DNA from: Arenimonas oryziterrae DSM 21050 = YC6267
GTDB taxonomy: Bacteria > Pseudomonadota > Gammaproteobacteria > Xanthomonadales > Xanthomonadaceae
Assembly: GCF_000420545.1 (NCBI RefSeq)
Contig: NZ_ATVD01000002.1
Location: 248,001-312,000, forward strand
Direction of reading: 5' to 3'
Length of the DNA stretch: 64,000 bases
Shown: piece after piece, positions 29,909 to 43,543 of the stretch
How the letters are laid out: every line of letters begins with the position of its first letter
How positions within the stretch are numbered: the first letter of the stretch is position 1
The notes under the pieces: model-generated
Database searches by the model: none
Seen by the model: the letters and a program-made list of their open reading frames with translations, nothing else
What the model was told of the DNA's origin: nothing
Program-made: the position numbers and the translations under genes

Positions 29909-30388
29909 ATGACGATCCAGATCGGCGAAAAAATTCCGCAGGCCACCCTCAACTACCTCAAGGATGGCGTGCAGGCCGTCAACACCGACGAATTGTTCGC
30001 GGGCAAGAAGGTCGTGCTGTTCGCCGTGCCGGGTGCGTTCACCCCGACCTGCTCGGCCAAGCATCTGCCGGGCTATGTCGAGAAGCTCGGCGAATTCGAG
30101 AAGCACGGCGTCGACGTCGCCTGCCTGTCGGTCAATGACGCCTTCGTCATGGGCGCCTGGGCGAAGAGCCAGAACGTACCCGATTCCGTGCACATGCTCG
30201 CCGACGGCAATGGCGCGTTCACCAAGGCCCTGGGCCTGGAACTCGACGCCACCGCCTTCGGCATGGGCCTGCGGGCAAAGCGTTTCGCGCTGTACGCCGA
30301 AGATGGCGTGGTCAAGCAGCTGTTCGTGGAAGCGCCGGGCGAGTTCAAGGTCTCCGCAGCCGACTATGTGCTCGAGCACCTGGGCTGA
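29909..30388 (+). CDS. Peroxiredoxin, Prx5 family
   Basis: This 159-residue thiol peroxidase carries peroxidatic Cys48 in PGAFTPTCSAKHLPGY and a second cysteine at 72 (VACLSVND), the arrangement of Prx5 enzymes that use glutathione or glutaredoxin. It reduces hydrogen peroxide, alkyl peroxides and peroxynitrite in the cytoplasm. The start is ATG 29909 after AGGAG. A TAGAAT at 29880 could be a -10 box. It is monocistronic, with a strong terminator after it. Confidence 0.92.
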   Translation: MTIQIGEKIPQATLNYLKDGVQAVNTDELFAGKKVVLFAVPGAFTPTCSAKHLPGYVEKLGEFEKHGVDVACLSVNDAFVMGAWAKSQNVPDSVHMLADGNGAFTKALGLELDATAFGMGLRAKRFALYAEDGVVKQLFVEAPGEFKVSAADYVLEHLG

Positions 30389-30411
30389 AACGACGCTCGT
30401 CGTAGAAACAG

Positions 30412-30440
30412 GAAAGCGGCCGCGAGGCCGCTTTCTTTTT
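30412..30440. terminator. Bidirectional terminator between peroxiredoxin and pbpC
   Basis: A perfect 10-bp stem (GAAAGCGGCC / GGCCGCTTTC) with a GCGA loop is followed by TTTTT on the plus strand. It lies 24 bp after the peroxiredoxin stop and 3 bp before the pbpC stop, so it can also end the pbpC transcript. Confidence 0.9.
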
Positions 30441-30442
30441 GC

Positions 30443-32809
30443 TCAGCGCAGGACCCGCAGTTGCAGTTCCGCCCAGGCACCGGACTCGGCCATCGCGGTG
30501 ATGCGCTGATCGCCCGGTTCGGCGAACGCATGCGAAAAACCGGCACTGCCGACGCTCTCGCCGACAAGCTGACCATTGACCAGCCAGCGCACGCGACGGC
30601 TGGTACCGAGCGCGCGCAGCCGCACTTGCGGCGGCAAGGCGCTGTTGGGCGCCCGCGCGATCGCACTGCCGTTGCTCGGACCTTCGATGCGCAGCGACTC
30701 CATCGCGGTCAGCGCATCGCCGCTGCAATCAGGCGACAGCGCGGGAATTTCCGCGGCCTTGCGCTGCGCCATCGGCAACCACGGATAGGCGAGACTGGGC
30801 CAGCGCGCGATCGCCATCGACCGCGTGGCATGCGTCTGCGAACACGCGCCGGCGATGCGCTTCCCGCTCGTCGCATCCACTTCGACAACCAGACGGCCGG
30901 AACTCCACAGGCGCGCGTCGCGCTCGGGCAAGGTCGGCGGCAGACTGCCAGTCAAGGCCCAGGCATCGCGTTTTTCGCGGCACAGTTCCGGATGCGCGGG
31001 ATCGTCGGCCAGACCAAGCGGCCAGCAGATATCGAGCCGGCGTACGTCCGGTGGCGGCGCACGTCGCGTCGCGACATGCCGGTTGCGCGGCAAACTGTCG
31101 ACAACCTCGAACAGCAAGGGCAAGGCCGTGACCGCACCGTACTGACCGGGCATCGGCGTGCCATCGGGCCGACCGACCCAAACGCCGATGGTGAAATCGG
31201 CCGTGCTGCCGAGCGCCCAGGCATCGCGGAAGCCGTAACTCGTTCCGGTTTTCCAGGCCACGCGTTGCTGGCTGCCAGTATCGAACGTGTCCTCGCTCAG
31301 GCCGTCGCGCTCGTGCTTTTCCAGGACCTCGCGAATGATCCATGCCGCGCCCGGCGACAGCAGACGTCGCGCCCCGGGGACCTGCCCGGGCGTGTAATTG
31401 ACGCGGCCGGCCAGTCCCTCGCGATTGAGCGCGACGTAGGCGCCTACAAGTTGTTCGAGCGAGACACCGGTACCGCCGAGAATGATCGATAGATTGGGTT
31501 TGGCGCCGGTCGGCAGACGCAGTTGCACACCGGCATGCGCCAGGCGCGCGGAGAAACGCTCCGGCCCGAGCCGGTCGAGCAGATCCACCGCCGGCACGTT
31601 CAGTGACAGTCGCAAGGCGTCGGATGCGGACACCGGCCCGTTGAAATTCGGATCGAAATTGGACGGACGGTAGTCGCCGAAACTTTGCGGTGCGTCGATC
31701 AGCAGGCTTTCGGAATGGATCAGGCCATCGTCCATCGCCAGGCCATAGAGGAAAGGCTTGAGCGTCGAGCCCGGCGAGCGCGTCGCCTGCACCATGTCGA
31801 CATGCCCCAGGCTTGCCTCTTCACCGAAGGCCAGCGAGCCGACATAGGCGCGCGCCTCGAGCGTGTGATTGTCGACGACCAGCAAGGCGGCCGAACTGCG
31901 CTCGGGCAAGCGGGAAAAATAGGCGGAAACGCGTTCTTCGAGCATGCGCTGCAGATCGGGGTCGATCGTGCTGCGGACTTCGGTCTTGCCCGGATTGGCG
32001 TTGCGCAGTCGCTCGGCCAGCAAGGGTGCGAGCATCGGCGGTTCCAGACGACGCGACACCACCGGCTCGATCAAGGCGTCGTGCACTTCCGCCTCGCTCC
32101 AGTCGCCCTGTGCAGCCATGCGCGCGAGCACCTTGTCGCGCGCCAGACGCGCGGCTTCGCTGTGCCGGTCCGGACGCAGACGGCTCGGCGACTGCGGCAA
32201 CACGGCGAGCAACGCCGCTTCCGCCGGCGAGAGCTTGCGCGAGGACTTGCCCAGATACGCCCAGCTCGCGGCCTCCACGCCTTCGATGGTGCCGCCGAAG
32301 GGCGCATGGTTGAGATAGATGGTCAGGATTTCGGTCTTGGAACAATGCAGCTCCAGCTGCAGCGCGCGCAGCATCTGACGAATCTTGCCCCAGCCGCTGC
32401 GCGGTTGCGGCTCGATGATGCGCGCGACCTGCATGCTCAGCGTCGAGCCCCCGGAGATGATGCGGCCGTTGCCGATCCACTGTCCGGCCGCGCGTACCAG
32501 TGCGACCGGATTGACACCCGGATGCCGCCAGAACCAGCGGTCCTCGTAACCGATCAAGGCCTGCACGTAAAGGGGTGACACGTCGTCGACCTTGACCGGA
32601 TATCGCCACACGCCGTTATCCGCCGCGAAGGCACGCAGTGGCGTGCCGTCGCTTGCCGTCACGATCACGCTGGCGTCGTGACGGTCGGGCAAGGGCAAGG
32701 GAAACAAGCGATCGAGACAGAACACGAAAACCGCGAACAACAACAGGCAAACACCGGCGTGGGCGGCGCGGCGGCGCCAGCGGCGGGCATGGAACGGAGG
32801 AAGGGACAT
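30443..32809 (-). CDS. pbpC: Penicillin-binding protein 1C
   Basis: This bifunctional class A PBP has 788 residues. A signal anchor (VCLLLFAVFVFCLDRLF) is followed by the glycosyltransferase domain with Glu89 in YEDRWFWRHPGV and STLSMQVARI, a transpeptidase with SxxK in SPGSTLKPF (about 347) and KTGTSYGFRDAW (about 519), and a C-terminal BiPBP_C domain (about 690-788). PBP1C polymerises glycan, with weak or no crosslinking in E. coli, and is widely paired with the macroglobulin gene, here 59 bp upstream. The pair is thought to repair the wall after protease attack from outside. Confidence 0.95.
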   Translation of the reverse strand: MSLPPFHARRWRRRAAHAGVCLLLFAVFVFCLDRLFPLPLPDRHDASVIVTASDGTPLRAFAADNGVWRYPVKVDDVSPLYVQALIGYEDRWFWRHPGVNPVALVRAAGQWIGNGRIISGGSTLSMQVARIIEPQPRSGWGKIRQMLRALQLELHCSKTEILTIYLNHAPFGGTIEGVEAASWAYLGKSSRKLSPAEAALLAVLPQSPSRLRPDRHSEAARLARDKVLARMAAQGDWSEAEVHDALIEPVVSRRLEPPMLAPLLAERLRNANPGKTEVRSTIDPDLQRMLEERVSAYFSRLPERSSAALLVVDNHTLEARAYVGSLAFGEEASLGHVDMVQATRSPGSTLKPFLYGLAMDDGLIHSESLLIDAPQSFGDYRPSNFDPNFNGPVSASDALRLSLNVPAVDLLDRLGPERFSARLAHAGVQLRLPTGAKPNLSIILGGTGVSLEQLVGAYVALNREGLAGRVNYTPGQVPGARRLLSPGAAWIIREVLEKHERDGLSEDTFDTGSQQRVAWKTGTSYGFRDAWALGSTADFTIGVWVGRPDGTPMPGQYGAVTALPLLFEVVDSLPRNRHVATRRAPPPDVRRLDICWPLGLADDPAHPELCREKRDAWALTGSLPPTLPERDARLWSSGRLVVEVDATSGKRIAGACSQTHATRSMAIARWPSLAYPWLPMAQRKAAEIPALSPDCSGDALTAMESLRIEGPSNGSAIARAPNSALPPQVRLRALGTSRRVRWLVNGQLVGESVGSAGFSHAFAEPGDQRITAMAESGAWAELQLRVLR

Positions 32810-32868
32810 GGAGGGAAGTCGAAGGCCGCGGGGACGACGCGAACGTCATCCCCGCGGAAAACCAAGTC

Positions 32869-35800
32869 TCAAGGTTGGACGACGGTGATGTTTTCCACCG
32901 TGGTGCGACCGACAGCACGCAGTTCGGGACGATACATATCCTCGACCTGCGGCGGCGGCACCACGTACGTGCCCGGCGTCACAGCGCGCACCAGATAGAA
33001 CAGTTTGGCCGTGTCGTAGGAGAGCTTGACGGCAGCGACATAGCGGTCGTCGCGATACTCCTCGTGCACGATCGTTGCCTGGCTGCCGCGCTCGTCGAGA
33101 GACACGCCGTCGACGGTGATGTCGGCCCATTGTTCGGCCGGCGTCAGGTTCAGGTTCTCGATCTCCAGGCCCGCCGGCAGCAGGTCGACGACCAACGCAT
33201 CGGGCACGCTTTCGCGCGACTCGATCTTCAGCTCGACGATCAGGGGCTGACCCTCGCGCAGGGTGCCGCCCTTCCAGGGCGTGCCGTCGGTGTTGTAGTA
33301 GCTGCGCAGGACGCGGATCTTGCCGTCGCTGACCGCCGGACGCGTGCGCGGAATGCCTGCGACTTCCACCGTCGCATACAGCGCACCGGTCGATTGCAGG
33401 TTGTAGCGCACGCCAGCCGCGAGATCGGCATAACTCAGGCTCTGGCTGGCGATGCGATCGGGCGTGAGCTTGGTCTGCGCGCTGCCGATGCTGTAGTCGC
33501 CCTGGAACACGCGTTCCTGGTCCATCGTGTTGGCGAGCGTCTTGCCCAGGCGGGCCAGCGCGATCTGTTCCTGCGTGCTGTACCAAACGTAGCGTTCGCT
33601 GGCGCGCGCGCTGAGGTTGCGCGACAACGAGAGCAGACGCGCATCGGCCTGCGGCAGGTTCAGCTTGTGACGCTTGGCCAGCATCACGATCAGGGCCTCG
33701 TCGCGGATGCTGGTGCCGTAGTCGCCGTAGTAGTACGGGCGGTCGTCCTTCATCTTGAACGCCTCTGCCAGCGCCTTCTTGCCGCGCGCCTGGTCGCCTT
33801 GCAGCGTCAGGGCCAGGCCGAGGTGCATCATCGCCAGCGGCGTCTTGGCCTTGGCGCGATCGTTGTCGTACAGCGCACGCAGCGTGCCCAGCGGTGCCCG
33901 GTTGACGCGTGCCAGCACGTAGCCGGCATGCGCCTGGTAGGCGAAGCGCAGGTTGTCGCGATAGTCATAGCCGTAGAACGGCGAGCTGCTGGTCAGCAGA
34001 TCCTCGTTCAGACGCGTCAGCGCTTTCTGCAACATGCCTTCGGGCACGGCGAAGCCGGCGTCGCGGGCATCGAGCAGGAACTCGGTGATGTACGGCGTGA
34101 GGATCGGATACGCCTCGGAATCGCCGCCCCAGAGCGAGAAATGTCCGCTGCTGGTCTGCATCGAGGCCAGACGGCTGAAGGCGCCTTCCAGGCGGTGGCG
34201 GCGATCATCCGGCGTCAGCCCCTTGAAGCCCATGCGCGCAGCGGTCTCGGCGTCGAGCAGCAGCGCCGCGTAGCCACGCGTCGTCGTCTGCTCGGCGCAG
34301 CCGTACGGATACTTGAGGATGTCGTCGAGCACCTGGGCGAATGGAATCGGCGGCAAGGTGCTGACGGTGACACGGGCATTGACCGTGCCCGGCATCAGAC
34401 CATCGGCGATCTCGGTGCCGACCGTGAGCCCCTGCCCCGACGTCAGCGTCTGCAGACGCGAACGCGCGACACCGCCCCAGGCCGGACGCACCGGAATCTC
34501 GAAGCTGCGATTGACGGTGTGACCGCCGCCGGTGACCTTGAGCTTGATCGTGCCCAGGCCGAAGCCCTGCCCGCCCGCGAGCGGGAAGGTCAGCGTGTTC
34601 TTGCCCTCGGCACCGAGCGTGAACTTGCGGCGGCCATTGGCCACGTCCAGCGGGCCGTCGGTGTCGATGGCGACGTTGAACTCGGCGATGCGACCGGTGA
34701 AGTTCTGCACGTCCAGCGTCAGCATGCTGCGATCACCGGGCGCGAGCGCGCGCGGCGCGCTGATCTCGGCGAGTACCGGCGCACGCAGCACGCTTTCCGT
34801 ACTGCCCTGCCCGTACTGGTCCTGGCTGTAGACAAGAGCCGACACGCGCAAGGTGCCGTTGAAGTCGGGCACGTTCACGCTGACCTGGGCTTCGCCGCGC
34901 GCATTGAGCACGACCGGGCCGGCGTACAGATCCACCGTCTGCACCTTGGCAGTCGGACGCTTCGCCTGCGGCAAGGCTTGCAGTGCCATGTCGCCGCCGA
35001 ACTTCAGCGAGGCGGTATCGCCTTCGAAACTCTCGATGACGCGACCGTAGATGTCATAGGCATCGACACCCAGGCGACGCTGCGCGAAGAAATGACTCGC
35101 GGCATCGGGCACCGGGAAACGCGTGATGTTGAGAATGCCGATGTCGACGGCGGAGACCGTGACCCAGGCCTTCTTGCCGGCCAGTTGCGGCGCCTTGATC
35201 GTGATCGGCAGCGCCTGCTCGGGACGGCTGAGCTTGGGCGCGGTCACCGTCACCGCAACCCGGCGATCGGCGCGCACCATGGGCACGTGCACGACACCGA
35301 CCGCGCGCGCGGGCGTGACTTTCTCGACCGCCGAACCGCCGCGGAACACCAGCGCAGTGATGTAGACGTCGTGGCGCTCCCAGTCTTTGGTGACCGTGAG
35401 TTCGAAGGTCGCACCGGCCTTGGCATCGATCGGCTGCGTGTGCAGCAGATGATCGCTTTCGACGATCAGCACGCCCGGGCCCGGATGCGGCGGCGTCACG
35501 GTGACCTTGACCTTGTCGCCGGCGCGATAGCCGGTCCGGTCGATCGCGAGCTTGACCTTGTCGGGGCGCGCGTCGAGGCCGCGGTTCTGGTTATCCCAGT
35601 CCCAACCGGCGACGAACGGGAAACGCGTGACCAGGCCGGTCGCCGGATCCTTCACTTCGACGCGGTATTCGCCCCATTCGACGGTGAAGTCGACGCGGGC
35701 GGCGCCCTCGGCGCGCGCGGCGACGGTTTTGGTCTCGACCGTCTTGAAGGTGGACGTGTAGTCGTAGCCCCAATGGTCGCTGTCATAGGTCCAGTGATAG

Positions 35801-37791
35801 TTGCGCTCCTCGCGCACCAGGCTCACGGAAAGATTGCTCGCGGCCTGCAGACGGCCGTCGGCCATGCTGCGGATGATCTCGAAGCCGACCGTGCTGTCGT
35901 ACGGAGCCGATTCCTTGGCGTCGAACAGCGGACGGACGCCGACCAGCACCGGCGCCGGCCAGAACGTGCGCTTGAGGCTGCGGCTGACCGGTCGACCGCC
36001 GGTTTCATACACGCTGCCGGTCACGATCACCGATACGGGCGCCGTGTTCTTGACCTCGTCGGGCAGCTTCAGCGCGTAGCTAAGCTTGCCTTGCGCATCG
36101 AGTGCGGTGTCGATGACGTCCTCGGGTTTCTTCGGCAACGACAGGGTCGGATCGCCGAAGAAATGGTCCGGGTACTTCTCGACCGGATGCTGCTCGGTCA
36201 CCACGCCCATGCGCGCGGTGAAACGGTTCTCCGAGGCCGGCGCGCCGTACAGATACGCGGCGGTCACGTCGAGCTTGAGCGCTTCGCCCGGCTTGATCGT
36301 CGCCTGGGCGGAATTGAGGTCGAGCTTCATGCGCTCGGGCAGGAACTCCTCGATGTGCAGCTTCATGCCCTGCACCACATCGCCCGCGCCCGGCGCGGTA
36401 CGGAATTCGACCTGCCAGTTGCCGGTCGGCGCATCGGGCGGCAAGGCCTGCTGCCATTCGAAATAGCCGGCTTCGCGCGGCGTGAGCTGCGATTCGATGA
36501 ACACCTTGCCATCGGGTTGCTTCAGGCTCAGGAACAGCGGCTGCGCCTTGACCGGCTTGCCGTCGAAATTGCGCATCAGGGCCGAGATGCGCAGGGTTTC
36601 ACCGGGGCGGTACAGGTCGCGACCGGACCAGGCGAAGACATCGAACCAGGCCTGTTCGCGGCCGGACACGTCGAACTCGGAGAGGTCCAGCGCCGGCTGG
36701 TTGAACGCCAGCATTGACACGTCGTTGCCGCGGCGCGCGATCAGCACCTGCTCGGCATTGAGCTTGTAGGCGACGAGCGCGTCGCCGTTGGAGTCGGTCG
36801 TCGCCTTGAGCGTCGTCTCGCCCTTGCGATCGAGCGCGGACAGGGTGACGTCGCCCAGCGCTTCACCGGACTTCAGAGAGGCGGTGTGGACGTAGATGTT
36901 GTCCTTGTAGGCGCGCACGTGCAGGCCGATGTCGCTGACGTAGAAGATCGCCGTCTCATATTCGCTGTCGAACTTCGCGACCGGCTTCATGACGGCGAAA
37001 TACAGGCCGGCGCCCTGCAGCTGGCTGATGTCCTTGAGCGGCAGATAGGTCAGACGGCGTTCGTTCTGCGCGCCACCGAGCACGAAACGATTGAGGTAGA
37101 CCGAATCGGCGTATTCGCGGATCGAGGCACGCGACTCGCTTTCGTAATCGCCCTCGTCGAGCTGCCAGCCGCTGCGACGACCGCCGCGCTGGTATTCGGC
37201 GAAGAACTTGGCGACTTCGCTGTCGCGCACGCGGAAGAATTCGACGTCCACTTCCGGCACGTTCACCGACACCACCGGCAGGCCGCGGCTTTCCTTCGCC
37301 GGCAGCACACTGCCTTGCGAGGCGAAGCCGACAGCGGGCTCCATCGGCCCGGTGAAGATCTTACGTTCGTCGTCCTTGCCCAGGATCTTGCCGTCCGCGG
37401 CGGTGAGGGCGGCGCGGATCAGCACCGAATAGGTTTCGCTCGCTTCGACATAAGGAAAGCGCAGCGTCTTGCCGTCGCTGGAGAGCACCCAGCTGCCCTT
37501 GATCAGTTCGCCCTTCGGCCCCTTGACCACCAGCAGCTGATCGAAATCCTGCGAACTCGCCAGCGCCTGCGAGAACTCAAGCTCGATGGCGGCGTCCCCG
37601 TTCTCTTCGCCGCGTCCCGCGGAGACCAGCCCGAATCCGACGACCTTTTCGCGCAAGTCCACGGCCGCCTGACCGGGCTGCAACTCGGGGACCTGGTTGG
37701 CGTCGCGCTTGCATCCGGTCAGACCGCTGACGACCAAAACGCAGGCAACAAAAAACGCCGCTATGCGACGTTGGGTTCGGGAATGGAACAT
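32869..37791 (-). CDS. yfhM: Bacterial alpha-2-macroglobulin lipoprotein (ECAM/YfhM type)
   Basis: This 1640-residue periplasmic protease trap starts with a lipoprotein signal (FFVACVLVVSGLTGC, Cys27 lipidated). Residues +2/+3 are Lys-Arg, unlike the Asp retention signal I recall for E. coli YfhM, so outer-membrane sorting is possible under the E. coli rule. A series of macroglobulin (MG) domains follows, then the thioester in PYGCAEQTTTR (Cys1165, Gln1168) inside an alpha-toroid, and a C-terminal receptor-like domain. Bait cleavage would expose the thioester and trap the protease covalently. It is upstream of pbpC on the same strand, the classical pairing. Confidence 0.93.
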   Translation of the reverse strand: MFHSRTQRRIAAFFVACVLVVSGLTGCKRDANQVPELQPGQAAVDLREKVVGFGLVSAGRGEENGDAAIELEFSQALASSQDFDQLLVVKGPKGELIKGSWVLSSDGKTLRFPYVEASETYSVLIRAALTAADGKILGKDDERKIFTGPMEPAVGFASQGSVLPAKESRGLPVVSVNVPEVDVEFFRVRDSEVAKFFAEYQRGGRRSGWQLDEGDYESESRASIREYADSVYLNRFVLGGAQNERRLTYLPLKDISQLQGAGLYFAVMKPVAKFDSEYETAIFYVSDIGLHVRAYKDNIYVHTASLKSGEALGDVTLSALDRKGETTLKATTDSNGDALVAYKLNAEQVLIARRGNDVSMLAFNQPALDLSEFDVSGREQAWFDVFAWSGRDLYRPGETLRISALMRNFDGKPVKAQPLFLSLKQPDGKVFIESQLTPREAGYFEWQQALPPDAPTGNWQVEFRTAPGAGDVVQGMKLHIEEFLPERMKLDLNSAQATIKPGEALKLDVTAAYLYGAPASENRFTARMGVVTEQHPVEKYPDHFFGDPTLSLPKKPEDVIDTALDAQGKLSYALKLPDEVKNTAPVSVIVTGSVYETGGRPVSRSLKRTFWPAPVLVGVRPLFDAKESAPYDSTVGFEIIRSMADGRLQAASNLSVSLVREERNYHWTYDSDHWGYDYTSTFKTVETKTVAARAEGAARVDFTVEWGEYRVEVKDPATGLVTRFPFVAGWDWDNQNRGLDARPDKVKLAIDRTGYRAGDKVKVTVTPPHPGPGVLIVESDHLLHTQPIDAKAGATFELTVTKDWERHDVYITALVFRGGSAVEKVTPARAVGVVHVPMVRADRRVAVTVTAPKLSRPEQALPITIKAPQLAGKKAWVTVSAVDIGILNITRFPVPDAASHFFAQRRLGVDAYDIYGRVIESFEGDTASLKFGGDMALQALPQAKRPTAKVQTVDLYAGPVVLNARGEAQVSVNVPDFNGTLRVSALVYSQDQYGQGSTESVLRAPVLAEISAPRALAPGDRSMLTLDVQNFTGRIAEFNVAIDTDGPLDVANGRRKFTLGAEGKNTLTFPLAGGQGFGLGTIKLKVTGGGHTVNRSFEIPVRPAWGGVARSRLQTLTSGQGLTVGTEIADGLMPGTVNARVTVSTLPPIPFAQVLDDILKYPYGCAEQTTTRGYAALLLDAETAARMGFKGLTPDDRRHRLEGAFSRLASMQTSSGHFSLWGGDSEAYPILTPYITEFLLDARDAGFAVPEGMLQKALTRLNEDLLTSSSPFYGYDYRDNLRFAYQAHAGYVLARVNRAPLGTLRALYDNDRAKAKTPLAMMHLGLALTLQGDQARGKKALAEAFKMKDDRPYYYGDYGTSIRDEALIVMLAKRHKLNLPQADARLLSLSRNLSARASERYVWYSTQEQIALARLGKTLANTMDQERVFQGDYSIGSAQTKLTPDRIASQSLSYADLAAGVRYNLQSTGALYATVEVAGIPRTRPAVSDGKIRVLRSYYNTDGTPWKGGTLREGQPLIVELKIESRESVPDALVVDLLPAGLEIENLNLTPAEQWADITVDGVSLDERGSQATIVHEEYRDDRYVAAVKLSYDTAKLFYLVRAVTPGTYVVPPPQVEDMYRPELRAVGRTTVENITVVQP

Positions 37792-37912
37792 GGTGGCACC
37801 TCCGGGGACTGCCCAGACGAACGTGCCGAGTCTTGCAACCCGGCCACGTTTTTAATGGAATTTTAACTGCGGTTATTTTTTCGTTATTTATCAATGACTT
37901 TCTTGAAATCAG

Positions 37913-38710
37913 TTACTTGCCGCTCGCCACGACCGGCAGTTTCGCCGCCTGGGCGGTCGCGGAAGCCACCTTGTCGATCGGTGTCATCTGCATCGCGGTA
38001 TCGGCCACATCCAGGCCCAGACCGCTGCCGCCGTTTCGCGAAGAGCGCATCAAGCGACCAAAATCGATATCGACATAGCCCATCGGATGCCCGTCAGCGG
38101 AAAACGCCATGCCGGGCACGCCATCGACGAGCAACACGGTTTTCGGCGTGCGCGTTTCGCCCATGACGAATCCAGGGCGGAACACCGGTACGCCGCCCCA
38201 CTCGTCCGACGTGCGCAGCAGCGAGAAGAACACCATGCCCGGCTCGGCACGAATGCCGTCGGACAGATTCACGAAGCTCAGCCCCGCCGGCGGCTGCCGC
38301 AGTCGCAGCCAGGCCAGACCGAGCTGGCTGTCGCGCGTGACCAGATCGGCCGGCAACCAGTCGTCGCTGCCGGGCAAACGCACGCGGAAATCGCTGGACT
38401 TGGCGACCGGCGCCGCGCCCTGCCCGCCGCCGCTGGGCATGAACGCACCGAAATCCATGCTGACCGCGCGATCGGGCACGAGCAGCAGGCCGTTCGCGCC
38501 GACCAGCAAGGCCTGCGTGCGATCCTCGATGCGCTCTTCCTTGCCGGAGCTGTTGACCGACATCACGAACTTCACGGTGACCACGGACTGCGCATGGCGC
38601 GCGGTGAGGTCCTTGTAGATCTGCCGGTAGTCCTCGACCTCGGCAGCGGAAACGCGCAGCGGCGAAAGCACGGACAACGCGAGCAACACGAACAGCGAAA
38701 CGGATTTCAT
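37913..38710 (-). CDS. Secreted trypsin-fold protein without catalytic residues (pseudoprotease)
   Basis: This 265-residue protein has a signal peptide (MKSVSLFVLLALSVLSPLRVSA) and a pattern reminiscent of HtrA proteases: HAQSVVTVKFVM, ALLVGANGLLLVPDRAV, RLPGSDDWLPADLVTRDSQLGLAWLRL and VDGVPGMAFSADGHPMGYV. Aligned by eye with its neighbour, the His position falls in VPDRAV (no His), the Asp is replaced by Gly near 131, and the GNSGGP segment reads GVPGMAF (no Ser). It overlaps the protease gene by 4 bp and is made with it. It may regulate, scaffold or protect substrates. The fold assignment is by pattern only. Confidence 0.65.
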   Translation of the reverse strand: MKSVSLFVLLALSVLSPLRVSAAEVEDYRQIYKDLTARHAQSVVTVKFVMSVNSSGKEERIEDRTQALLVGANGLLLVPDRAVSMDFGAFMPSGGGQGAAPVAKSSDFRVRLPGSDDWLPADLVTRDSQLGLAWLRLRQPPAGLSFVNLSDGIRAEPGMVFFSLLRTSDEWGGVPVFRPGFVMGETRTPKTVLLVDGVPGMAFSADGHPMGYVDIDFGRLMRSSRNGGSGLGLDVADTAMQMTPIDKVASATAQAAKLPVVASGK

Positions 38711-40785
38711 CGGGACTCCGGAGCGTCGGCCTTGAGCCAGTAGCGTTCGAGATAGAGGATGCGCGTCTGGCTGCCGCGAATCACCTGCAAGGGAATGAGA
38801 CCGCCGTCGACGGCCGCGAGCGAATGATCGAGTGCTTTCGACAGTTCATCGGGCGTGCTGACCAGACGGTCGCCGAGCTGGATGATGACATCGCCGCGCT
38901 TGAGATGCGCCAGACCCGCGGCGCCACCGCTTTCGACGCCATCGATGATCACGCCACTGCGATCCATCGGCAGCTTGAGCGCGACGCGATCGTAGAAACC
39001 CAGTTCGCGCAGCTGCGCGCGCAAGCCGGCAACCGCGAGCGTGCGCAGGCCGGAGGTATCGACCGGCGACGGCAACAACCCGACGTCGAATTCGATCGTC
39101 TTGCCGTCGCGCAGCGCCGAGAAACGCGAGCGACTGTCGAGCGACAGATCGTGCACGCGCTGGTCGAAGCCTTCCGACGAAGTTTCGTTGTTGGGCTTGA
39201 GCGGCTCGCCGTCGACCGACACCAGCAGGTCGCCGACTTTCGCGCCGGCCTTCGCCAGCGGACTGCCCGGATACAAGCGGGAAATGCGGTAGCCCGGCCC
39301 GGGCAGGCCGATTTCGCGCGCCAGGGAGGTGGTGAACGGCTGCACTTCCACGCCGACCCAGGCTTTCGGCAACTCGGGCAATGGCGTGCGCGCCTGGTCG
39401 CCGAACACGGGCGTGAGCAGACTCAGACGCTGCGCGCCGTCACGCTCGCTTTGCACGATGAGCGGTTTGACTTCGGCGCCGGGGCGCAGCGCGCTGGAGA
39501 GATCGGCCAGCGAATTGACCGGTTTGCCATCGATGCGCCGGATCACGTCGCCAGCCGCCAATTCCGGGCGCGCCACGGCGGCCGGTCCGCCTGGACGCAC
39601 GCCGGTGACGAGCAGGCCGGCAGCATCGTCGAGATTACGTCGGCGGCCCATCGCTGCCGTGAGTTCGGACGCGGAAATGCCCAACGGCGGCACCGCGTTT
39701 TCGTCGCCGCGTTCGCGCGTCTGCGCGGTGGCCTTGAGTTCGATGTCGCGGCGCTTGCCGTCGCGTTCGACTTCGATGCGCACGGCCGAATTCACCGGCA
39801 GTTCGGCGATGTGCTTTTGCAGGGCCGGCAAGTCGATCGGCTGCGGTGCGTCGATCGCTTCGCCGTTGAGCTTGAGAATGCGGTCGCCGGCACGAAGGCC
39901 GGCTTTCTCCGGCGGCGAATCGCGTTCGACCGCATTGACCAGCACGCCATGGCTGAAGCCGGTGCCCTTGAGCGAACGCAGGCGAAACCCGAGCGAAACG
40001 CGGCTGACGCTGCCTTTGTCGATGAGCGCGCGAACCACACTGCCCGCCTCCGGACCAGGAATCGCGAACGCGAGGTCGCCGCCGACGATCATGCCGCGCG
40101 TATTGACGCCGACTATGCGGCCGCTCAGATCCACCAGCGGGCCGCCGGAATTGCCCGGCGCGATCGCCGCGTCGTGCTGGATCCAGGCGTAATAGCGACC
40201 GGTCGGCTCGTCTTCACCCAGGCTGTCTTCGTACTCGGCCTCATCGTCGAACAGGGAAACCAGCAGGCGGCGCGGATTGTTGACGACGCCGGCACTCATC
40301 GAATTGGACAGGCCCCAGGGCGCGCCCATCGCCAGCACGGTATCGCCGGGCTTGATGTCGAGCGAGGTCGCGAATTCGGCGTAGGCGAAGGTCTCCGGAC
40401 GCGGCGACTGCACCTGCAACACGGCCAGATCCGACAATGTGTCGGTGCCGACGAGTTTCGCCGGCAGCTCGCGACCGTCGGCGAACACGACGCGGAAGGA
40501 TTTGCCGTTCTGGGTGACGTGCGCATTGGTAGCGATGTGGCCCTGCGCACTGACCACGGTGCCGCTGCCGCTGGACACGCTCAGCGAGGGTTCGCCCTGG
40601 CGATAGTCCTGACGCACCGTGAGGATGCTCACGACGACGGGCAGCACCTTGTCGCGCGCAGCGGAAATGCGGTTGCTGTCGGCCGTCGCGGGCAGCGACT
40701 GGTCGGCATGGGAAAGGGTCGGGGCGAGAAACAGCAGCCCCAGCAAGATCATCGCCGGGCGCAGGAAGAATCGGATGTCGTGCAT
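38707..40785 (-). CDS. HtrA/Deg-like serine protease with four PDZ-like domains
   Basis: This 692-residue exported protease has a signal peptide (MILLGLLFLAPTLSHA) and an intact triad: His89 (IATNAHV), Asp119 (SDLAVLQV) and Ser213 (APGNSGGP). PDZ-like domains follow at about 265-355, 367-455, 474-572 and 583-680, each with a recognisable AGLRAGD, LAAGDVI, AKVGDLL or LKRGDVI element. DegP has two PDZ domains, so this is an expanded member. The acidic insertion DDEAEYEDSLGEDEPTG (about 180-196) resembles a regulatory loop. It heads the same-strand run pseudoprotease-macroglobulin-pbpC. Confidence 0.88.
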   Translation of the reverse strand: MHDIRFFLRPAMILLGLLFLAPTLSHADQSLPATADSNRISAARDKVLPVVVSILTVRQDYRQGEPSLSVSSGSGTVVSAQGHIATNAHVTQNGKSFRVVFADGRELPAKLVGTDTLSDLAVLQVQSPRPETFAYAEFATSLDIKPGDTVLAMGAPWGLSNSMSAGVVNNPRRLLVSLFDDEAEYEDSLGEDEPTGRYYAWIQHDAAIAPGNSGGPLVDLSGRIVGVNTRGMIVGGDLAFAIPGPEAGSVVRALIDKGSVSRVSLGFRLRSLKGTGFSHGVLVNAVERDSPPEKAGLRAGDRILKLNGEAIDAPQPIDLPALQKHIAELPVNSAVRIEVERDGKRRDIELKATAQTRERGDENAVPPLGISASELTAAMGRRRNLDDAAGLLVTGVRPGGPAAVARPELAAGDVIRRIDGKPVNSLADLSSALRPGAEVKPLIVQSERDGAQRLSLLTPVFGDQARTPLPELPKAWVGVEVQPFTTSLAREIGLPGPGYRISRLYPGSPLAKAGAKVGDLLVSVDGEPLKPNNETSSEGFDQRVHDLSLDSRSRFSALRDGKTIEFDVGLLPSPVDTSGLRTLAVAGLRAQLRELGFYDRVALKLPMDRSGVIIDGVESGGAAGLAHLKRGDVIIQLGDRLVSTPDELSKALDHSLAAVDGGLIPLQVIRGSQTRILYLERYWLKADAPESR

Positions 40786-40936
40786 GGGAACCCCGGGAGA
40801 CTTGCCGCAAGCTTAGGCGCAAGCCGCGTGAAAAATCCATGCGCCTTGCGGGCAGTTACCGGGAAGCAGGTGGTCCAACCGCGACCGCGATCGCGCCGGG
40901 CGGGCGCGATTGCGGGTCACGAACGGGAGGCGCAGG

Positions 40937-43543
<2,607 letters not shown>

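Follow-up and report, generated by a model that had tools for sequence, protein, structure and literature searches.

In a 64,000-nucleotide stretch of the Arenimonas oryziterrae DSM 21050 genome (contig NZ_ATVD01000002.1, positions 248,001 to 312,000; the window), two overlapping genes encode an exported HtrA-type serine protease with four PDZ domains, here called htrA4, and an exported HtrA-fold pseudoprotease without PDZ domains, its dead partner. The two genes are paired from genome to genome, the partner shares the protease fold and has lost the catalytic residues, and a constant inventory of domains is split differently over the two chains. We infer that the two proteins are probably the subunits of one exported, hetero-oligomeric HtrA, which would serve in quality control of the envelope. 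The pair is laid out as follows, with positions counted from the first letter of the window.

38707..40785, minus strand: htrA4, exported HtrA-type serine protease, 692 residues (signal peptide, protease domain and four PDZ domains)
40012..40674, minus strand: htrA4 active protease domain, about residues 38-258 (Pfam 73-227 and alignment A2; boundaries set by us)
40186..40269, minus strand: htrA4 enlarged loop ahead of the catalytic serine, about residues 173-200 (comparison of segment lengths)
39730..40002, minus strand: htrA4 PDZ1, about residues 262-352 (Pfam PDZ_2, 264-351)
39400..39690, minus strand: htrA4 PDZ2, about residues 366-462 (Pfam stretches and secondary structure of the model; boundaries chosen)
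39070..39366, minus strand: htrA4 PDZ3, about residues 474-572 (Pfam stretches and secondary structure of the model)
38734..39036, minus strand: htrA4 PDZ4, about residues 584-684 (Pfam stretches, secondary structure of the model and the pdz4 profile)
38707..38710, minus strand: 4-bp stop/start overlap (ATGA) of htrA4 and the partner
37913..38710, minus strand: dead partner, predicted exported HtrA-fold pseudoprotease without PDZ domains, 265 residues (AlphaFold model, fold searches and catalytic residues)

An HtrA protease with four PDZ domains

Pfam places one Trypsin_2 domain and four PDZ stretches in the 692-residue protein, and the catalytic residues His89, Asp119 and Ser213 are invariant in 11 aligned rows, that of the window included. 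The protein thus has the hallmarks of the HtrA/Deg family, a trypsin-fold domain with a His-Asp-Ser triad and C-terminal PDZ domains. Foldseek matches it to DegP (E-value 5.6e-24), and ordinary HtrAs are the best among the matches listed in a PDB sequence search with its C-terminus (E 1.9e-23). It lies below the cut-off of the Do family (TIGR02037, 320.6 versus 416.2 bits) and reaches 165.6 of 800 bits on the MamE model and 52.6 of 800 on the MamO model. Both htrA4 and the partner have an apparent N-terminal Sec signal peptide, predicted by eye. A preliminary description of this DNA had proposed four open reading frames on one strand, including an HtrA-like protease with four PDZ domains and a catalytically dead relative overlapping it by 4 bp; all four frames lie on the minus strand where they had been placed, and the Pfam assignments, the intact triad and the overlap at 38707-38710 bear out the rest.

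The loop ahead of the catalytic serine is longer in htrA4 than in the DegP-like proteins of its own genome. As a measure of it, the stretch between GVV and GNSGG counts 41 residues in the window and 38-43 in 78 four-PDZ rows, as against 28-33 in 11 active chains with two PDZ domains (described below) and 24 and 25 in own-genome DegP-like proteins (n = 2); in this count, GNSGG was missing from L071, L091 and L100 (active chain cut off), and L114, L118, L121 and L127 were off the motif. The enlarged loop has a low predicted local distance difference test score (pLDDT) when htrA4 is folded alone, and the htrA4 model as a whole has a pLDDT of 75.1.

A partner with the HtrA fold and a predicted dead site

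The 265-residue partner scores 14.5 bits against Trypsin_2, below the Pfam cut-off of 27.6, and matched no NCBIfam model up to E 1; because it stands above no Pfam or NCBIfam cut-off, such genes may often be annotated as hypothetical. Its fold is nevertheless that of an HtrA protease. The AlphaFold model (mean pLDDT 83.8) is matched to HtrA1 by Foldseek (E 8.7e-10), and VIA-align gives Z scores of 19.8 to HtrA1 and 19.5 to DegQ and DegP, superposing 171-180 residues at a root-mean-square deviation of 2.4-3.4 Å, with the HtrA fold spanning residues 20-259. Among the matches listed in a PDB sequence search with the partner profile, ordinary HtrAs are best (E 2.5e-10).

In the window, the partner has R at the position of the catalytic His and G at that of the Asp, and the Ser position holds P in one alignment and a gap beside A-F in another, with Ser in neither. 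We aligned 82 partner rows, made up of 71 partners from 69 of the 80 loci introduced below (two loci have two copies) and 11 rows of profile A1, some of them from genomes that also supply loci (L020 and L081, for instance). No row has His at the catalytic His position (0/82), and none has Ser at the Ser position (0/82), where 28 gaps fall, among the rows shown, in the group of Lysobacterales families f1 and f3. Asp is kept in 47 of the 82, and the rows without it, among those shown, are again mostly Lysobacterales f1/f3. By contrast, all 15 active domains aligned with these rows have a complete triad. Three partners (L106, L116 and L130) do contain GxSGG-like strings, but 18-28 residues beyond the Ser column and within loops rich in glycine; the columns that are invariant across 31 diverse partner rows are V, G, D, P and G. 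From the alignments and the model, the partner is predicted to be a non-proteolytic HtrA protease domain without catalytic residues, and the dead state of its family is an old one. Uniform loss of the catalytic residues under a conserved fold points to a non-catalytic function that has been kept.

Protease and partner kept together across phyla

In an order sample of 150 Lysobacterales genomes searched for the partner, htrA4 and yfhM (a macroglobulin gene treated below), the dead partner occurs in 12 genomes and htrA4 in the same 12, 11 times at full length (E 8.4e-118 or better) and once as a fragment at a contig end (G047); further htrA4 matches in seven other genomes of the sample were no better than E 4.2e-45. 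The partner lies directly behind htrA4 in all 12. With a better profile, the partner was found in 24 of 397 Lysobacterales genomes, belonging to 9 of 98 genera. Across 370 gammaproteobacterial genomes, profile A1 gave, outside the genome of the window, only matches of at most 32.2 bits, in 22 genomes; from their frame length and score, these are taken as ordinary HtrAs.

A scan of a genome collection, made with peptide patterns from the htrA4 C-terminus only so that the partner played no part, gave 90 confirmed loci, of which we analysed the best 80. These span Arenimonas, Silanimonas, other Lysobacterales, many Phycisphaerae, other Planctomycetota, Acidobacteriota and Hydrogenedentota; most are from Planctomycetota, and one deltaproteobacterial and one 'cyanobacterial' metagenome-assembled genome (MAG) are also among them. 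The partner lies at most 500 bp downstream on the same strand in 67 of the 80 loci and 1.2 and 2.5 kb downstream in two; it is not nearby in the remaining 11, and 10 of those 11 genomes encode it elsewhere. Two loci (L097:8752-10502 and L114:4962-6601) have two dead partners in tandem behind one htrA4, possibly specialised copies.

Two further searches were made in the relatives of single genomes. In the class of G515 (a Phycisphaerales MAG, locus L126), strong matches to the partner (>120 bits) and to the htrA4 C-terminus (>200 bits), cut-offs that were set after the scores were known, occur in the same 14 of 148 genomes, and the partner adjoins htrA4 in all 14. In the phylum of G527 (an Acidobacteriota MAG, L092), the partner search matched 7 of 199 genomes, each with an active chain alongside: six have the window's arrangement, with four PDZ domains on the active chain and none on the dead one (4+0), and one has two on each (2+2). 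The earlier proposal that the protease and its dead relative belong together is thus borne out in the Lysobacterales, in the class of G515 and in the phylum of G527, and a pair kept together across several phyla suggests one two-part enzyme. A further conserved gene in this module was ruled out. When open reading frames were clustered around 67 loci (L080-L141 plus five from Acidobacteriota, with two gyrA-linked loci in the set), the active chain appeared in 65, the partner in 42 as clustered by BLAST, and the next family, like any third one, in no more than 7.

Two divisions of the PDZ domains

The 2+2 form was found in 11 loci with tandem genes that each have the size of an ordinary HtrA gene: an active protease carrying two PDZ domains, followed by a protease domain without GNSGG and two further PDZ domains. 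Of 29 further genomes in the class of G515 with weaker partner matches, 14 were opened; 13 hold a dead two-PDZ chain and one, G542, a lone partner-like frame, and G536 and G615, from the search with the htrA4 C-terminus, and G530 bring the dead two-PDZ chains to 16. GNSGG is absent from all 16; the catalytic His is kept in one of them (L184), the Asp in two and the Ser in none.

The 2+2 chains were scored on profiles that represent PDZ1 to PDZ4 and both protease types as they occur in the window family. The protease of the first gene scores 182-216 on the htrA4 profile, compared with 115 and 131 for own-genome DegP-like controls, and that of the second gene 32-83 on the partner profile, compared with 16.5 and 22.7 for controls and 2-27 for the 2+2 active chains. 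The PDZ domains of the active chain match PDZ1 and PDZ2 best in 11/11 loci, and the last PDZ domain of the dead chain matches PDZ4 best in 16/16, at 40-65 bits (DegP-like controls, 22 and 14). On these profile scores, PDZ4 of htrA4 appears to be the counterpart of the second PDZ domain of the dead chain in 2+2 systems; PDZ3 would be the counterpart of its first, by order and not by specific sequence. Because the same parts occur in the 2+2 and 4+0 forms, the form in the window looks like a redistribution of the other, or the reverse, and PDZ domains that have moved between two chains are expected if the chains work in one complex.

The Hydrogenedentota genome G530 holds both forms, a 4+0 pair (L120/L155) and a 2+2 pair (L184). 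Fused bacterial genes resembling plant Deg7 were considered in G733 and G750 and rejected, as the long frames proved spurious, running across separate genes; there is no fusion in either genome, and no wider search for fusions was made.

Descent of the two chains

Trees of the active chain and of the partner have their main groups in common, which is consistent with inheritance as a unit: f1 and f3 together (support 100 in both trees), f7 with L123 (100 and 98), four Acidobacteriota-type rows (100 and 98) and the Hydrogenedentota (100 in both). The four-PDZ rows form one group in the active-chain tree, with modest support (81), and the two-PDZ rows lie outside it. The pair of Lysobacterales family f7 (L024, L026, L027, L098 and L123) stands among mainly planctomycete sequences in both trees, a placement that suggests transfer between phyla. 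Two labels in these trees look wrong. L123 carries an Oceanospirillales label but agrees in contig number and coordinates with a Lysobacterales genome of f7 (G529, G947), and L066, a 'Rhizobium sp.' MAG, falls inside Arenimonas in the active-chain tree.

Neighbouring genes

The pair is flanked in the window by gyrA and by two envelope genes.

40937..43543, minus strand: gyrA, a DNA gyrase gene, directly upstream of htrA4 (context, outside the proposed mechanism)
37792..37912, minus strand: 121-bp AT-richer gap from the partner to yfhM (fall in GC)
32869..37791, minus strand: yfhM-type thioester alpha-2-macroglobulin lipoprotein, 1640 residues (domains and motifs; neighbouring module)
30443..32809, minus strand: pbpC, penicillin-binding protein 1C (PBP1C), 788 residues (TIGR02073; neighbouring module)

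The 1640-residue protein has bacterial macroglobulin domains (Pfam), and a thioester motif, GCAEQ, and a lipobox, LTGC, can be read from its translation; the 788-residue protein passes TIGR02073 (PBP_1c) with 764.6 versus 494.2 bits. A CxEQ macroglobulin lipoprotein here adjoins PBP1C, so that the two genes downstream of the pair are those of the YfhM (ECAM)/PBP1C module, whose pairing and proposed role in defence and repair are in print (PMC3328433). In these respects the preliminary description was right: it had placed a thioester macroglobulin lipoprotein, behind a 121-bp gap, and PBP1C downstream of the pair, and had recognised them as a known module of defence and wall repair. It had also suggested extending that module to the protease pair, with the macroglobulin as a trap, and had named absence of the adjacency in most relatives, and a strong terminator with separate regulation between pair and yfhM, as grounds against this. 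The extension did not hold, as genomes with only one of the two modules exist for both.

Only in the genus of the window does yfhM come after the pair (4/4 genus genomes, 4/150 genomes of the order), and the adjacency of pair and yfhM is absent in most relatives. In the order sample, yfhM-type genes, counted at E up to 1e-40 with a distant class included, occur in 74 of the 150 genomes; 65 of these 74 are without the protease pair, and 9 of the 12 pair-bearing genomes have them. Five f3 pair-bearing genomes have yfhM elsewhere, and in three f7 pair-bearing genomes no yfhM match passing 1e-40 was found. yfhM stands behind the pair in 11/11 Arenimonas-type loci versus 0/5 Silanimonas loci, and no yfhM orthologue was found in the five pair-bearing Silanimonas genomes, two being without a match and three having a macroglobulin at 26-27% identity (the five include two near-identical pairs, by the tree). 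Six genomes of the window's family that lack the pair were opened, and in three of them (L028, L030 and L036) yfhM-pbpC itself adjoins gyrA, with 0.3 to 1.4 kb between the matches. Adjacency in a single genus, together with the occurrence of each module without the other, indicates that two independent modules have become neighbours at the gyrA locus. The genes for the macroglobulin and PBP1C form a module separate from the protease pair, which outside the genus of the window is not part of the YfhM/PBP1C module in the genomes examined, and the macroglobulin seems to stand beside the pair through local gene order only.

The 121-bp gap is likely the break between the modules. Its GC fraction is 0.475 versus 0.59-0.71 in the surrounding DNA; no clear terminator or terminator-like site was found in it, and RNA structure in the yfhM leader or gap was not significant (z -1.34). 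No sigma-70-like site was found in 30000-41500. A terminator-like site follows pbpC (30435-30412), one of 10 found against 8.7 expected.

Two observations concern the macroglobulins themselves. In G005 (C1:1405696-1410374), the yfhM-type gene is read as a pair of neighbouring matches that divide near query residue 1020, and many genomes of the order also encode another, larger class of macroglobulin (frames of about 1,900-2,100 residues, 25-27% identity; for example, G040:C33:50483-55105).

The preliminary description did not mention gyrA upstream of the pair. In the sample of 150 genomes, the order gyrA-htrA4-partner recurs wherever an f1 or f3 locus was readable (8/8), and the scan of the genome collection shows gyrA next to the pair at 20 Lysobacterales loci. 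gyrA and htrA4 overlap by 4 bp in four f3 loci (L020, L021, L023 and L025), whereas at the three f7 loci the pair is not accompanied by gyrA. gyrA was rejected as a functional partner, since it adjoins the pair in Lysobacterales f1/f3 only, apart from one planctomycete MAG (L115:8827-11469) where a gyrA-like gene converges on htrA4, probably by coincidence.

Relation to known HtrA systems

DegP and DegQ resemble htrA4 in protease fold, triad, PDZ domains and export signal; to our knowledge they have two PDZ domains and no dead partner, unlike htrA4. Yeast Nma111p presumably has the same inventory as plant Deg7, one that the protease pair shares. The Pfam model PDZ_1 (PF12812), which we take to cover Nma111-like proteins, was over its cut-off in one of 18 relatives (L102, 33.2 versus 28 bits, over PDZ2), in a comparison made without a DegP control; it was weaker or absent in the other 17 and absent in htrA4 of the window.

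In plant Deg7, the domains are ordered PD-PDZ-PDZ-PDia-PDZ-PDZ, and the inactive protease domain is involved in trimerization (PMC3473262). By that account, Deg7 has the inventory of the pair summed over its two genes (one active and one dead protease domain and four PDZ domains), and its domain order is that of the bacterial 2+2 form read across both genes. Deg7 is one polypeptide, whereas the system in the window consists of two genes and two exported chains, with all four PDZ domains, unlike in Deg7, on the active chain.

MamE and MamO of magnetotactic bacteria, like htrA4 and the partner, combine an active HtrA with a dead one. Dead MamO activates MamE without catalysis and binds metal, and a TauE-like transporter domain of MamO is needed for activation (PMC4794232). 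No such active/dead HtrA pair outside MamE/MamO was found described among the papers listed in searches of the open-access literature, judged by titles and the starts of abstracts. As far as this search reached, all the parts are of known kinds, and their combination, its breadth and the division of the PDZ domains are not described outside magnetosome genes.

Proposed mechanism and alternatives

HtrA enzymes assemble through their protease domains into trimers or cages; their PDZ domains bind client C-termini, and a loop ahead of the active site receives the activating signal. In a two-subunit HtrA, the active chain would recruit unfolded or tagged clients through its PDZ domains and then cut them; the dead chain, which retains the HtrA protease fold but would not cut, would assemble with the active chain into a mixed oligomer. 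The dead chain may fix the oligomeric state of the active chain, act as a switch, or both; as a switch, it would dock on or hold the enlarged loop beside the catalytic serine and thereby turn the active chain on. We infer the interaction, its stoichiometry and the sign of its effect, for which activation is thought more likely than inhibition.

Several points weigh against this reading. The seed rows of the C-terminus scan came from pair-bearing genomes. Linkage is incomplete, the partner standing apart (2) or unlinked (10) in 12 of the 80 loci, and at one of the 80, in a MAG (L108), no partner was found. G542 has a lone 320-residue partner-like frame (78.7 bits) without a strong htrA4 match, G646 and G577 each carry a second, lone partner, and 5 of the 16 dead two-PDZ chains have no active chain alongside. 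Across those 16 chains, the first PDZ domain matches PDZ3 best in eight, PDZ1 best in seven and both equally in one, and an ordinary DegP-like control scores 44 on the PDZ3 profile, so PDZ3 is not traced specifically. The weakness of the htrA4 model, at a pLDDT of 75.1, means that its poor active-site loops may reflect only a shallow alignment. Deeper branches differ between the two trees (L124/L125, L118/L119 and L113). Finally, the study of MamE and MamO detected no physical interaction between them (PMC4794232), and the transporter domain that it ties to activation by MamO is absent from the 265-residue partner.

The partner could instead be an inhibitor or adaptor, capping the protease or delivering one class of client without being a stoichiometric subunit. 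The pairing data fit equally, the 4-bp overlap gives coupled synthesis, and the tandem partners (L097, L114) and lone second partners (G646, G577) would suit client-specific adaptors. We nonetheless consider this rather unlikely, as the protease fold is retained over the partner family and the dead chain of the 2+2 form has two PDZ domains of its own, a better fit to a subunit than to a small regulator. Unlikely, too, is separate action in the envelope, by which the partner would be an HtrA fold repurposed as a chaperone or a metal or ligand binder, its adjacency to htrA4 arising from shared expression and tandem duplication. The metal bound by MamO in addition to its activation of MamE (PMC4794232), the partners unlinked in 10 genomes and the partner-like frame of G542 speak for it; yet all 10 unlinked partners are in htrA4-bearing genomes, strong partner matches and strong htrA4 matches coincide exactly, in 14 genomes out of 148, and the PDZ domains are split differently over the two chains.

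The other two accounts are far less probable. One mutually adjusted operon for defence and repair, comprising protease, dead partner, macroglobulin trap and PBP1C, would explain why yfhM adjoins the pair in 11/11 Arenimonas-type loci and in the four genus genomes of the order sample. It is very improbable given that yfhM is beside the pair in 0/5 Silanimonas loci and in no pair-bearing genome of f3 (five) or f7 (three) in the order sample, that no orthologue was found in the five Silanimonas genomes, that 65 of the 74 genomes with yfhM-type genes are without the pair, and that yfhM itself adjoins gyrA in three of six pair-less relatives opened. That the partner hydrolyses substrates by means of another active site seems scarcely credible: its fold is conserved and Asp is kept in 47/82 rows, but no row of the 82 has Ser at the nucleophile position, the GxSGG-like strings of L106, L116 and L130 are misplaced by 18-28 residues, and the 31 diverse rows have only V, G, D, P and G as invariant columns. 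A two-subunit HtrA is the reading that we prefer.

Significance

More tentatively, the pairs may represent a widespread class of hetero-oligomeric HtrA with an obligatory dead subunit, structural or allosteric, and four PDZ domains divided 2+2 or 4+0, possibly a bacterial, split counterpart of the Deg7/Nma111p plan. HtrA proteases have been studied mostly as homo-oligomers. If its dead partner is conserved in several phyla, a two-gene HtrA would lend itself to testing the control of a protease by a pseudoprotease, with natural variants on offer in which the PDZ domains are on one chain or shared by both. It would also serve as a point of comparison, from bacteria, for the dead domain in proteins of the Deg7 type.

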